A stretch of 39,731 nt of DNA from Natrinema pallidum DSM 3751 (GTDB lineage: Archaea > Halobacteriota > Halobacteria > Halobacteriales > Natrialbaceae), in NCBI RefSeq assembly GCF_000337615.1, contig NZ_AOII01000041.1:72858-112588 (forward strand), written 5' to 3'. Shown here one piece after another: positions 26,743-31,423 of this stretch. The position numbers were made by a program, and so were the translations under genes. Under the pieces are notes generated by a model. The model saw only the letters and a list, made by a program, of their open reading frames with translations. It was not told the DNA's origin and made no database searches. The first letter of the stretch is position 1; each line of letters starts with the position of its first letter.

Positions 26743-26770
26743 CCCCCCACCCCTTCGTTTCGAGTGGAGA
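26743..26770 (-). other. ORB (Orc1 box), left, reading leftward
   Basis: On the minus strand the core at 26750-26768 reads TCCACTCGAAACGAAGGGG, followed by a longer G-tract. It matches the haloarchaeal ORB pattern (dyad half, GAAAC, G-string) and is inverted relative to the ORB at 27084. Confidence 0.85.
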
Positions 26771-26894
26771 TCCGCGAGGCCGTCGGGTGAGATACGAACT
26801 GGACAGTCGCTACTGGCGGGGATATCGGCCTGCTTTTCGGCTCGAGAAGGTTCTCAGCCCCATTACGATGGTGTATTCGCTGATACGGACGGTT

Positions 26895-27084
26895 CTAGTA
26901 ATCCAGAAGCTAGTCTAGCAATATAGATGGCTCTGAGAACCAGTTCTAGTAGGATCTAGTAAATAGCATTCTATACCTAGTAAGAACATCTTGTTTGCTA
27001 GTGCTACGGATACTGTTTCTAGCCGACCCAAATAAATCTTCTCATCACAAATTCCGTCGAACCCCCACCCACCCTCGTGGCTAG
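26895..27084. other. Probable duplex-unwinding core with nine CTAG sites
   Basis: This is the lowest-GC stretch of the window. CTAG occurs at 26895, 26910, 26915, 26946, 26956, 26977, 26998, 27019 and 27081, mostly as TCTAG or GCTAG. Between the two inverted ORBs it is where origin melting would be expected. Confidence 0.6.
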
Positions 27085-27116
27085 TTCCACCTGAAACGAA
27101 GGGGTGGGGGGGGGTT
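27084..27116 (+). other. ORB (Orc1 box), right, reading rightward
   Basis: The core at 27086-27104 reads TCCACCTGAAACGAAGGGG and is followed by T and an uninterrupted run of nine G. It pairs as an inverted partner with the box at 26743, across about 310 bp. Confidence 0.85.
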
Positions 27117-27480: not shown

Positions 27481-29265
27481 ATGTCAGACGACAACTCAGA
27501 GATCACTGGCTCGGACGAGGTCGACGGAACGAGCGGTTTCTCGACGGACTTCGAGAGCGCCGACCTCGGCGACGACGAGTCGAATCAGGGACTGTTCGAC
27601 GACCTGCTCAGCGGCGAGCCCATCTTCGAGAACAAGGAAGTCCTCCGTCCGTCCTACACCCCACACGAACTCCCCCACCGGAGCGATCAGATCAACAAGA
27701 TGGCGACGATTCTCGTCGCCGCGCTCCGCGGTGAAACGCCGTCGAACATCCTTATCTACGGCAAGACCGGCACCGGCAAAACCGCGAGCGCCAAGTTCGT
27801 CAGCAAGGAACTCGAGAGCACCTCACAGAAGTACTCGGTTCCGTGCGATGTCGAGTACATCAACTGCGAAGTTACCGACACCCAGTACCGCGTGCTCGCA
27901 CAGCTCGCGAACAAGTTCATCGAGAAGAACGAAGCGCGGATCGACGACCGCGTCGCGACGCTCGAGTCGCTGCTCGACGATATCGACGAGTACGACGCCG
28001 ACGCGGCGCGCCGCAGTGCCGACGCGACTACACCGGACGACGGCGCGGACGACCGGACGGCGTCGGACCCCTTCGATTTCGTTTCGAGCGCGGACGCGGA
28101 GCCGGACGCCGACGGTTCAGGTGGAGACGAAACCGGCGCTCAGTCTGGTGGTTCTGCAGTCGAAACAGGGGGGTCTCCGGACGGATCGACGGATGCCGCC
28201 GACTCCTCGTCGTCCGCATCGGAGACCGGGCGGGAGGTCGCCGGCGGTCCCGGCCACGACGAGGCCACGACCGATTCGTCCGCGCCCCCGCCGGCCCATC
28301 CACTCGAGTCGACGGCGTTCGAGACTCGCGCCGAGGTCGAGGACCGCATCGCCGAACTCGAGGACGACAAGGAGTCGTTCGAGGAGGTACCGATGACCGG
28401 GTGGCCGACCGACCGGGTCTACAGCGTTTTCTTCGACGCCGTCGACTACGACGAACGGGTCGTCGTCATCATGTTAGACGAGATCGACAAACTCGTCGAG
28501 AAAAGCGGCGATGACACCCTCTACAACCTCTCGCGGATGAACTCCGAACTCGAGAACTCGCGGGTCTCGATCATCGGTATTTCGAACGATCTGAAGTTCA
28601 CCGACTTCCTCGATCCGCGGGTCAAGTCCTCCCTGGGTGAAGAGGAGATCGTCTTCCCGCCGTACGACGCGAACCAGCTACGGGACATCCTCAAGCACCG
28701 GTCCGAGGTCGCGTTCAAGGGGAACGCGCTCTCCGAGGACGTGATCCCGCTGTGTGCGGCCTTCGCCGCACAGGAACACGGCGACGCGCGACGCGCGCTG
28801 GACCTCCTGCGGACCGCGGGCGAACTGGCCGAACGGTCCCAGGCCGAGACGATCGTCGAGGAACACGTCCGGCAGGCCCAGGACAAGATCGAACTCGATC
28901 GCGTCGTCGAAGTCGTCCGGACGCTCCCCACCCAGAGCAAACTCGTCCTCTTCGCGATCATCCTCCTCGAGAAAAACGGCGTCCACAGCATCAACACGGG
29001 CGAGGTGTTCAACATCTACAAGCGCCTCTGCGAGGAGATCGACGCGGATGTCCTGACCCAGCGCCGGGTGACGGATCTCATCAGCGAACTCGACATGCTC
29101 GGGATCGTCAACGCCGTCGTCGTCTCGAAGGGGCGGTACGGCCGGACCAAGGAGATCAGCCTCTCCGTTCCACTCGAAGAGACGGAGGCCGTCTTGCTTT
29201 CCGACTCCCGACTGAGCGACATCGACGATGTCCAGCCGTTCGTTCAGGCGCGGTTCGAAAACTGA
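27481..29265 (+). CDS. orc1: Orc1/Cdc6 replication initiator
   Basis: Origin-binding AAA+ initiator that also loads the MCM helicase. It has 594 residues. An acidic N-terminal extension (1-50) is followed by the AAA+ domain with Walker A GKTGTGKT at 94-101 and Walker B VIMLDEID at 329-336. Sensor-type segments (SIIGISNDLKFTDFLDPRV) and the C-terminal winged helix (from about 480, ending in FVQARFEN) follow. Residues about 178-285 form an acidic, disordered insertion between the Walker motifs, making this longer than the usual 400-residue archaeal Orc1; haloarchaeal oriC1-linked Orc1 proteins often carry such an insertion. It faces away from the origin, directly beside it. Its insertion-coding DNA contains an ORB-like sequence. 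Confidence 0.93.
   Translation: MSDDNSEITGSDEVDGTSGFSTDFESADLGDDESNQGLFDDLLSGEPIFENKEVLRPSYTPHELPHRSDQINKMATILVAALRGETPSNILIYGKTGTGKTASAKFVSKELESTSQKYSVPCDVEYINCEVTDTQYRVLAQLANKFIEKNEARIDDRVATLESLLDDIDEYDADAARRSADATTPDDGADDRTASDPFDFVSSADAEPDADGSGGDETGAQSGGSAVETGGSPDGSTDAADSSSSASETGREVAGGPGHDEATTDSSAPPPAHPLESTAFETRAEVEDRIAELEDDKESFEEVPMTGWPTDRVYSVFFDAVDYDERVVVIMLDEIDKLVEKSGDDTLYNLSRMNSELENSRVSIIGISNDLKFTDFLDPRVKSSLGEEEIVFPPYDANQLRDILKHRSEVAFKGNALSEDVIPLCAAFAAQEHGDARRALDLLRTAGELAERSQAETIVEEHVRQAQDKIELDRVVEVVRTLPTQSKLVLFAIILLEKNGVHSINTGEVFNIYKRLCEEIDADVLTQRRVTDLISELDMLGIVNAVVVSKGRYGRTKEISLSVPLEETEAVLLSDSRLSDIDDVQPFVQARFEN
28151..28177 (+). other. ORB-like site inside the orc1 coding sequence
   Basis: The core at 28155-28173 reads TGCAGTCGAAACAGGGGGG, about 16 of 19 matching the ORB-like sequence in polB at 31839-31857. 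It encodes part of the disordered acidic insertion (SAVETGGSP), where protein constraint is low. Confidence 0.4.
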
Positions 29266-29498: not shown

Positions 29499-30446
29499 TC
29501 AGTGTCGATGCCGGCCGATCGCGACCGCGGCTCCGGCCCCGGTACTGGCGATGGCAGCGACCCCGGCGAGGTTCCCGTCCGGTCCGACACCAGTGGCACC
29601 CGGATCGGCGGGCGTCGGTGCCGGTATCGATCCCTGGGTTGTACTCGAGGGCGACGTCGGAACGAGCATTCCACCGAGGAGTTTGTCGAAGGTCAGGCGG
29701 ACGTGCCCGAGCCACGGGATGCGGAACATCGCTTTGCCTTGAATCCACGTTGGTTTGACGACGTCGCTAATCCCGTTTCCGTACTGGTCGTATCCGTCGT
29801 TGTTGTCACCTTTCGTGACGAAGCCGGCGTGCTCTGCGGGGCAGGTCGCGACATCCTCACAGGTCGCATCCCCGACGATCTCCTCGCTGGCCTTGGTATC
29901 GACCCAATGTTCTCCCTTGTCGACCCAGAAGTGGGCGCGGTGGATCACCGGCGTTTCCGCCGGATCGCCGTTGGGTTGGTAGATGATCACGTCGCCGGGA
30001 TTGCCGAACTTCTCGTGGTCGCTCTCCTGACCGTTTTCGAGGGTGACGACACCGGTTCCGGCGGCGGCAGCGTCACCGGCGAATCGGCCCTCGTCTGCGA
30101 CGAAGATGAGATCGCCCTTGTGCATGTTCGGCTCCATACTGCCGCTTTCGACGGCGACGAGTGGGGGCCAGATGCCGCTGACGCCGAACAGGAGGAGACC
30201 GACGACGGCGACGATGGCGACGCTGCTCAGGATATCCCGCGTCACCATGACGGTCTCGTTGTCGGTGTTGAGGAACCAGCGCAGGAGCCCGTCGTCTTCG
30301 ATCGTCACGCCGTCGTCGGCGGTGGCGGCGTTTCCGGGTGGCTCCTCGGGTGCAGGCGGCGTTTGCGAACTGCCGGCGCTTCGATCCCGCTCGCGATCGT
30401 CGTCGCCGGAATCATCCGGGGGCGACCCGGCACTAGAACCGCTCAT
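29499..30446 (-). CDS. Signal peptidase I, archaeal type (copy 1)
   Basis: Membrane serine protease that cleaves signal peptides outside the membrane. It has 315 residues: an acidic N-terminal region (1-60), one membrane segment (about 72-94), then the S26 catalytic domain with SGSMEPN (nucleophile S103), VIHRAHFW (H169) and TKGDNND (D214). The Ser-His-Asp set is that of archaeal/ER Sec11-type peptidases rather than the bacterial Ser-Lys dyad. A second hydrophobic C-terminal segment ends in GRHRH after a Pro/Ala/Thr/Gly stretch. ATG 30446 was preferred to GTG 30452; a TATA-like CAAATCAAC (30470-30478) lies about 28 bp upstream. It is a tandem paralogue of the next gene. Confidence 0.87.
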   Translation of the reverse strand: MSGSSAGSPPDDSGDDDRERDRSAGSSQTPPAPEEPPGNAATADDGVTIEDDGLLRWFLNTDNETVMVTRDILSSVAIVAVVGLLLFGVSGIWPPLVAVESGSMEPNMHKGDLIFVADEGRFAGDAAAAGTGVVTLENGQESDHEKFGNPGDVIIYQPNGDPAETPVIHRAHFWVDKGEHWVDTKASEEIVGDATCEDVATCPAEHAGFVTKGDNNDGYDQYGNGISDVVKPTWIQGKAMFRIPWLGHVRLTFDKLLGGMLVPTSPSSTTQGSIPAPTPADPGATGVGPDGNLAGVAAIASTGAGAAVAIGRHRH

Positions 30447-30508
30447 CGTCACTCGTTTTGCCGGGCCGTCAAATCAACTTTCCGTTCGCGGGGATCGCCC
30501 CGATCGTC

Positions 30509-31423
30509 TCAGTGACTGCCATCCTCGGCAGCCATCCCGAACAGGACGAGCGCGATCGTGCCCGTCGCGACGAAGGTACCCGTCGGTCCCAACCCGGTCG
30601 CTGCGCCTACCGAGCCGACCGCCAGCCGAAGCTCTCCGACCCATGGCACCCGAACCATTGCTTTCCCGGTGATCCAGTCGGGGCTGACGATCGTCGTCTC
30701 CGCCCCCGAGCGTGGCAGTTGGTCGTAACCGGGATTGGCGTCGCCTTTCGTAACGAACCCGGCGTGCGGTGCCGGACACGTGGTGATCTCGTCGCAGGTC
30801 GCACCGTTCAACGACCCTGGGTCGGCTTTCGTCTCGACCCATCGCTCACCCTTGTCGACCCAGAAGTGGGCGCGGTGAATCGTCGGCGTCTTCGTCGGAT
30901 CGCCGTTCGGGATGAAGACGATGACATCGCCGGCGCTGGCGAACTTCTCGTGGCCGTTTTCCCGACCGCTCTCGAGGGTGACGACGCCGGTGTCGCCGAT
31001 GGCGTTTTCGCCGGCGAACCGATCGTCGTCGACGACGAAGACGAGATCCCCCTCCCGGATGTTCGGTTCCATACTCCCGCTCTCGACGGCGACGAACGGC
31101 GGCCAGGTTCCGCCGATAGCGAACAGGAGGAGACCGATGGTCGCGATGATCGCGAGACTCGCTGCGACATCCCGACACGTCGTGACTCGCCAGTCGTCGG
31201 TCTCGAGCAGCCAGCGACCGATCCCGTCCTCGATCGCAACGCCGTCGTCGTGAGTGGGGTTCCTGCGGTCGTCGGGCGCTCGATCTCGGCGGTCGGGCTC
31301 GCGGTCGGCTGGCTTGGCCGCGCGGTCACCGGGGTCGGCTCCCCGAGCCGAGTCCGGTCCCGAGCGTCCGTCAGGGGGTCCGGTCGGGTCGTCGCCCCGC
31401 GTCTCGCCGTCAGGCCCATCCAT
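30509..31423 (-). CDS. Signal peptidase I, archaeal type (copy 2, tandem paralogue)
   Basis: A 304-residue paralogue of the adjacent peptidase: charged N-terminal region (1-65), one membrane segment (about 87-107), SGSMEPN with S117, TIHRAHFW with H183, and TKGDANP with D228. All three catalytic residues are kept, so both copies should be active. The blocks HRAHFWVDKGE and HAGFVTKGD are shared exactly between copies, while the linkers and N-termini have diverged. C-terminal hydrophobic residues (FVATGTIALVLFGMAA) suggest a second membrane helix. The 62-bp spacing suggests duplication and possible co-transcription. Whether the copies prefer different signal peptides cannot be read from sequence. 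Confidence 0.87.
   Translation of the reverse strand: MDGPDGETRGDDPTGPPDGRSGPDSARGADPGDRAAKPADREPDRRDRAPDDRRNPTHDDGVAIEDGIGRWLLETDDWRVTTCRDVAASLAIIATIGLLLFAIGGTWPPFVAVESGSMEPNIREGDLVFVVDDDRFAGENAIGDTGVVTLESGRENGHEKFASAGDVIVFIPNGDPTKTPTIHRAHFWVDKGERWVETKADPGSLNGATCDEITTCPAPHAGFVTKGDANPGYDQLPRSGAETTIVSPDWITGKAMVRVPWVGELRLAVGSVGAATGLGPTGTFVATGTIALVLFGMAAEDGSH

Follow-up and report, generated by a model that had tools for sequence, protein, structure and literature searches.

A conserved CTAG array in the predicted unwinding region of haloarchaeal oriC1 and its proposed role in methylation-tuned origin firing

We analysed a stretch of 39,731 nucleotides from Natrinema pallidum DSM 3751 (hereafter the window), in which a replication initiator gene adjoins a pair of inverted ORBs. 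Two features by which a haloarchaeal oriC1 is recognized were found here, namely a conserved orc1/cdc6 gene next to the origin (27481–29265) and an inverted G-string ORB pair around an AT-rich region, with the window's least stable stretch between the two ORBs. The features of the locus are as follows.

26743–26770, minus strand: left ORB with C/G-string (CCCCCCACCCCTTCGTTTCGAGTGGAG), differing at 4 positions from the haloarchaeal ORB in reverse complement
26870–27060, unstranded: AT-rich duplex-unwinding region of oriC1, the least stable 100–150 bp of the window, between both ORBs
27002–27018, plus strand: conserved box TGCTACGGATACTGTTT beside CTAG site E; other families have boxes of related sequence (TACGGGTTTGGTT and similar) in the corresponding position
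27084–27114, plus strand: right ORB with G-string (GTTCCACCTGAAACGAAGGGGTGGGGGGGGG), assigned by sequence
27481–29265, plus strand: orc1/cdc6, the oriC1-associated initiator, 594 aa (NCBIfam NF001625, ORC1-type DNA replication protein; score 653 bits, cut-off 501)

By nearest-neighbour energy over 100–150 bp, the lowest duplex stability in the whole window falls on a stretch rich in CTAG, which is predicted from its sequence and position to be the AT-rich core (DUE) of this orc1-adjacent oriC1, between the inverted ORBs. The layout resembles the haloarchaeal oriC1 of Wu et al. (2012, 2013; PMC3528665, PMC3936714), in which orc1/cdc6-A lies beside inverted G-string ORBs around an AT-rich region; the cis elements dissected there differ, being ORBs, G-strings and a G-rich repeat in the excerpts of those papers used here, and the word CTAG is absent from the 2012 paper (PMC3528665). 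An exact count gave 21 CTAG in the window, 9 of them inside 26895–27084 and 12 elsewhere, all single, in agreement with an earlier note on this DNA that had counted nine in 190 bp and about a dozen others by eye. That note had also described CTAG as avoided in haloarchaea, and both the window, with 21 sites against 49 ± 7 expected from dinucleotide shuffles, and the O/E of 0.25 outside the origins of methylase-bearing genomes bear this out. Within a 210-bp core there are 9 CTAG where dinucleotide shuffles average 2.0, and a count of 9 was reached in 0 of 5000 shuffles. The cluster had rightly been placed inside the origin, as the row of sites sits between the inverted ORBs, upstream of orc1. 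The note had missed the helical phasing and the extended motif TCTAGTAA, as well as the fact that conservation across the family is limited to five of the nine sites. The nine sites, all unstranded, are as follows.

26895–26898: CTAG site A0 (GTTCTAGTAA), confined to the genus, phased helically with A–E
26910–26913: CTAG, private to the window's genome in the alignment, out of phase
26915–26918: CTAG site A, kept in 15 of 17 Natrialbaceae genera
26946–26949: CTAG site B (TTCTAGTAG), 16 of 17 genera, A–B 31 bp
26956–26959: CTAG site C (TCTAGTAA), 17 of 17 genera, B–C 10 bp
26977–26980: CTAG site D (CCTAGTAA), 22 of 23 genomes, C–D 21–22 bp
26998–27001: CTAG site E (TTTGCTAGT), 13 of 17 genera, D–E 20–21 bp
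27019–27022: CTAG, in phase, shared by some members of the genus only
27081–27084: CTAG, private to the window's genome, overlapping the right ORB at its first base

In an alignment of 23 Natrialbaceae origins from 17 genera, sites A–E recur at 0/31/41/62–63/83 bp whilst the spacers between them drift. This spacing (31/10/21–22/20–21 bp) is kept in 13–17 of the 17 genera, the C–E distance stays close to 42 bp even where D moves by one, and conservation reaches 90 % in the CTAG columns compared with 64 % in the others. At the best period of 10–11 bp the vector strength is 0.99 for the five sites of the window and 0.97 for the family spacing, and none of 5000 draws of five random sites reached the observed value; the p of at most 0.0008 applies to one arrangement, and these genomes, being of common descent, are not independent of one another. 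For all nine window sites taken together, the phasing p is 0.005. The extended flank TCTAGTAA was found in Natrialbaceae only, whereas in other families CTAG alone is constant and its flanks are almost uninformative. A search for 10–11 bp CTAG periodicity in origins outside Natrialbaceae found none, and phasing as a rule for all haloarchaea was thus rejected. Within Natrialbaceae, the phasing of five sites on one face together with the longer consensus TCTAGTAA points to a protein lying along that face.

For the comparison across haloarchaea, we looked for the methylase in 391 genomes of the class and scored 59 as having no ortholog, either because a match was missing or because its E-value was no better than ∼1e-25. 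The oriC1 regions of 166 genomes were gathered, and an ORB pair was located in 146 using the right ORB of the window (27084–27114) as search pattern. Across the 111 methylase-bearing haloarchaeal genomes, the CTAG density over the 1.5 kb before orc1 is 2.85/kb, vs 0.32/kb farther upstream, the largest such ratio among all 16 palindromic tetramers; the corresponding densities in methylase-less genomes are 0.64/kb and 0.17/kb. Expressed as O/E, near and far values are 1.43 vs 0.25 with the methylase and 0.44 vs 0.15 without it. As O/E away from the origin is low also in methylase-less genomes, the avoidance of CTAG is independent of the methylase. When origin cores of methylase-bearing genomes are compared with methylase-less ones, CTAG tops all 256 tetramers with a 9.5-fold enrichment, and TATA and ATAT are commoner in the methylase-less cores. 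In order to control for composition, we compared windows of 50–60 % AT in origin cores and elsewhere, and found 29.3 vs 2.5 CTAG/kb in Natrialbaceae, 16.1 vs 1.5 in other families, 10.7 vs 0.8 in family f4 with the methylase and 1.0 vs 0.7 in methylase-less genomes.

The interval between the ORBs holds two or more CTAG in 71 of 101 genomes with the methylase vs 3 of 45 without, or, by genus median, in 44 of 57 genera vs 0 of 8. Outside family f4, every methylase-bearing origin with an ORB pair (51 of 51) has at least one CTAG in this interval. Contrasts within genera are also available: methylase-less members have 0 CTAG between the ORBs vs 1, 3 and 3 in genus g66, 1 vs 3 in g81, and 0, 0 and 0 vs mostly 1–2 in g32. 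Of the phylogenetically independent pairs, ∼3.2 agree, 0.2 disagree and 2.6 tie (p ∼0.25, at low power and on a quick tree). After correction for phylogeny, the association between cluster and methylase thus points the expected way without reaching significance.

Exceptions to this association are of two kinds. Three methylase-bearing genomes, G005 of the same genus as the window as well as G070 and G042, have neither CTAG upstream of orc1 nor ORBs. In G005 orc1 is kept (L095) with no ORBs or AT-rich array within 3 kb upstream, and the same lack is seen upstream of orc1 in Halovivax (G070, G042) and in G044. The oriC1 locus seems to have been lost or moved in all four, and the upstream sequences suggest that array and origin were lost together in G005, G070 and G042. 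As the ORBs, and hence the origin itself, are gone in G005, this genome was discarded as a same-genus counter-example. The second kind is found in Halorubrum, where species and relatives without the methylase have intact ORB pairs and no CTAG, and where the cluster is likewise missing from seven genomes that have a CTAG-type methylase; the presence of a methylase as sufficient for the cluster is thereby ruled out. The enzymes of these seven (L315–L321) make up a tight clade of their own, apart from all others (100/98), which suggests, as a post hoc reading, one later acquisition in a genus without origin CTAGs.

The genome of the window (G000) encodes one full-length PF01555 protein of 351 aa (L081:1435-2490) and has one further partial match. 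The full-length protein shares 48 % identity over 97 % with the enzyme of plasmid pFZ1, whose gene adjoins an MjaI-family nuclease gene and which we take to be M.MthZI. M.MthZI is a characterized CTAG m4C enzyme from the host species of pFZ1 and a homologue of Haloferax volcanii HVO_0794 (PMC5867850). A search of the window's genome for nucleases of the RE_MjaI type, limited to the MjaI family and with a positive M. jannaschii control, gave no match. CTAG is modified as m4C at 97.0 % in N. versiforme BOL5-4 and 98.7 % in N. pallidum BOL6-1 (PMC6696651). The earlier note had anticipated an orphan CTAG methylase, which this homologue and the absence of an MjaI-type nuclease corroborate, and had held that the idea would fail if relatives lacked the enrichment or the organism lacked CTAG methylation; instead, the origins of relatives are CTAG-enriched, and m4C was reported at 97–98.7 % in two Natrinema strains. 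We looked for a gene conserved beside the methylase across families and found none in 16 neighbourhoods, so that a reader encoded next to the enzyme was dropped as a candidate.

Clusters of CTAG upstream of orc1/cdc6, together with an orphan m4C methylase, were reported in Haloarchaea by Blow et al. (2016; PMC4752239, Fig. 6D; the motif is printed once as CATG in the text and as CTAG in the figure legend), who proposed that the orphan methylase may regulate replication, and they are discussed by Ouellette et al. (2018; PMC5867850). The core idea is thus already known, since the association of CTAG with origins is published. Motif, methylase family and place are the same here, as is the raw correlation across genomes, and two marks of that system recur: a cluster of CTAG in non-coding DNA at orc1/cdc6 that relatives share, and a CTAG methylase without cognate nuclease, in the form of the homologue and the missing MjaI-type enzyme. 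Those studies deal with motif density, to which we add the location in the DUE between the ORBs, the AT-matched control, the co-loss with ORBs, the phased five-site array with TCTAGTAA, and the exceptions given by Halorubrum and the independent pairs. A search of open-licence papers turned up no mention of the helical array, the TCTAGTAA extension, the AT-matched specificity, the ORB co-loss or the Halorubrum exception, and the evenly phased five-site layout is apparently newly described. Our data strengthen the published idea by sharpening its position and specificity and adding the phased array, whilst the mechanism remains a proposal.

We regard it as near certain that the CTAG cluster is a selectively kept, conserved cis element of the oriC1 unwinding region. 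Beyond this, it is reasonably probable that methylation state tunes origin firing through this DUE element. The array sites would be substrates of the orphan m4C methylase recognizing CTAG; as the motif is palindromic, each passage of a fork would leave sites hemimethylated, and the whole array would stay so until the methylase catches up. Methylation state would in turn alter the ease of DUE opening or of binding, and with it the time at which the origin can fire again. In Natrialbaceae, the five sites on one helix face over eight turns, with TCTAGTAA, may serve a protein laid along that face, whilst other families would have retained CTAG alone. We infer both the effect of methylation on initiation and its reader or physical route. 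The probability given to this reading as a whole is shared about equally by a SeqA-like reader, duplex stability and an effect on some other bound protein. Deletion of the methylase in H. volcanii gave no growth phenotype, and the authors of that work note that origins are dispensable in the species (PMC5867850). The Haloferax origins we examined have only 1–3 CTAG between the ORBs, which suggests that this deletion is a weak test. The deletion, the CTAG-less ORB origins of methylase-less lineages and the independent pairs argue against a strong version of methylation control.

A rival that we consider possible, though well short of probable, is that an initiator, an MCM-loading factor or a chromatin protein reads CTAG or TCTAGTAA irrespective of methylation, with the link to the methylase incidental or due to shared ancestry. 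The motif TCTAGTAA and the one-face phasing in Natrialbaceae would fit such a protein, as would the loss of significance after phylogenetic correction and the methylase-positive Halorubrum without a cluster. It accounts poorly, however, for the constancy, beyond Natrialbaceae, of just the methylase target CTAG amid almost uninformative flanks, for the lack, by genus median, of two or more CTAG between the ORBs in all eight methylase-less genera, and for the contrasts within g66 and g81, which fit a methylase link.

Two special cases of methylation-tuned firing are, each taken singly, unlikely. In the first, a putative protein bound to hemimethylated CTAG pairs would block loading of Orc1/MCM until remethylation, much as in E. 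coli oriC, where the palindromic target of an orphan methylase is likewise clustered in the unwinding region with sites on one helix face. SeqA uses just such one-face helical-turn spacing on GATC, and the Natrialbaceae sites (this family only) are spaced by 1, 2 and 3 helical turns; the origin cluster, the orphan methylase and the genus methylome also speak for it. The two systems differ in base, motif and initiator (m4C, CTAG and Orc1/ORB here; m6A, GATC and DnaA there), with both the methylase family and the genus methylomes indicating m4C and not the m6A of Dam. Moreover, E. coli has SeqA, whereas no such reader is known in archaea, the methylase has no conserved neighbour gene, the phasing is not general, and the enzyme is dispensable for growth of H. 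volcanii. In the second case, to which we give a similarly low probability, no reader is needed: m4C, together with the weak TA step of CTAG, would lower DUE stability, and a fully methylated origin would open more readily than one just replicated. It is known that m4C lowers duplex stability, although a literature search on its melting effect found nothing useful. The sites do coincide with the window's minimum of duplex stability, and the higher TATA and ATAT content of methylase-less cores looks as if another easy-melting sequence had replaced CTAG, but the fixed helical spacing and the TAA extension in Natrialbaceae are left unexplained. Marginally less probable than either is a full archaeal counterpart of SeqA, evolved independently of the bacterial system, in which a putative protein on one DUE face would recognize hemimethylated m4C CTAG (TCTAGTAA in Natrialbaceae) and time re-initiation by Orc1/ORB. 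Finally, the view that AT-rich intergenic DNA simply tolerates CTAG, as the relative frequency of the motif upstream of genes in Haloferax lucertense might suggest, is very improbable and was rejected as a composition artefact, given that AT-matched windows elsewhere hold about one-tenth as many CTAG, that methylase-less origins of similar AT are at background level, and that conservation is position-specific over 17 genera.

The means by which archaea guard against a second firing of the same origin are little understood. Should oriC1 be gated by CTAG methylation, a methylation clock resembling the one in E. coli would have evolved in archaea whose initiators are eukaryote-like, and it would use another base, another enzyme and another initiator. 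With the phased array, the correlation of 2016 becomes a set of exact bases open to mutation in a genetically tractable genus, for which Natrinema J7 vectors built on chromosomal origins exist (PMC5350488).

When a cluster was defined as three CTAG with gaps of up to 30 bp, the genome of the window contained nine, of which five lie just upstream of orc/cdc6 genes (contigs C41, C22, C110, C24 and C38), two at contig ends and two elsewhere. The four further orc/cdc6 genes concerned (L257, L258, L259 and L261, on C22, C110, C24 and C38) have upstream clusters of different spacing. The box at 27002–27018 is possibly an undescribed haloarchaeal origin element; its Halorubrum version is GTCGAGGGTACTGTT, and in methylase-bearing lineages boxes of this type are often directly preceded by CTAG, with AATAAA ∼20 bp further on. 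Within the otherwise conserved Orc1 (27481–29265) there is a long acidic, low-complexity insertion at about residues 165–275, and the open frames of orc1 orthologs range from about 420 to 850 aa. Additionally, two tandem genes resembling archaeal signal peptidases (29499–30452 and 30509–31423; by eye, from an ESGSMEPN motif) are flanked by orc1 and a gene resembling the small subunit of DNA polymerase D.
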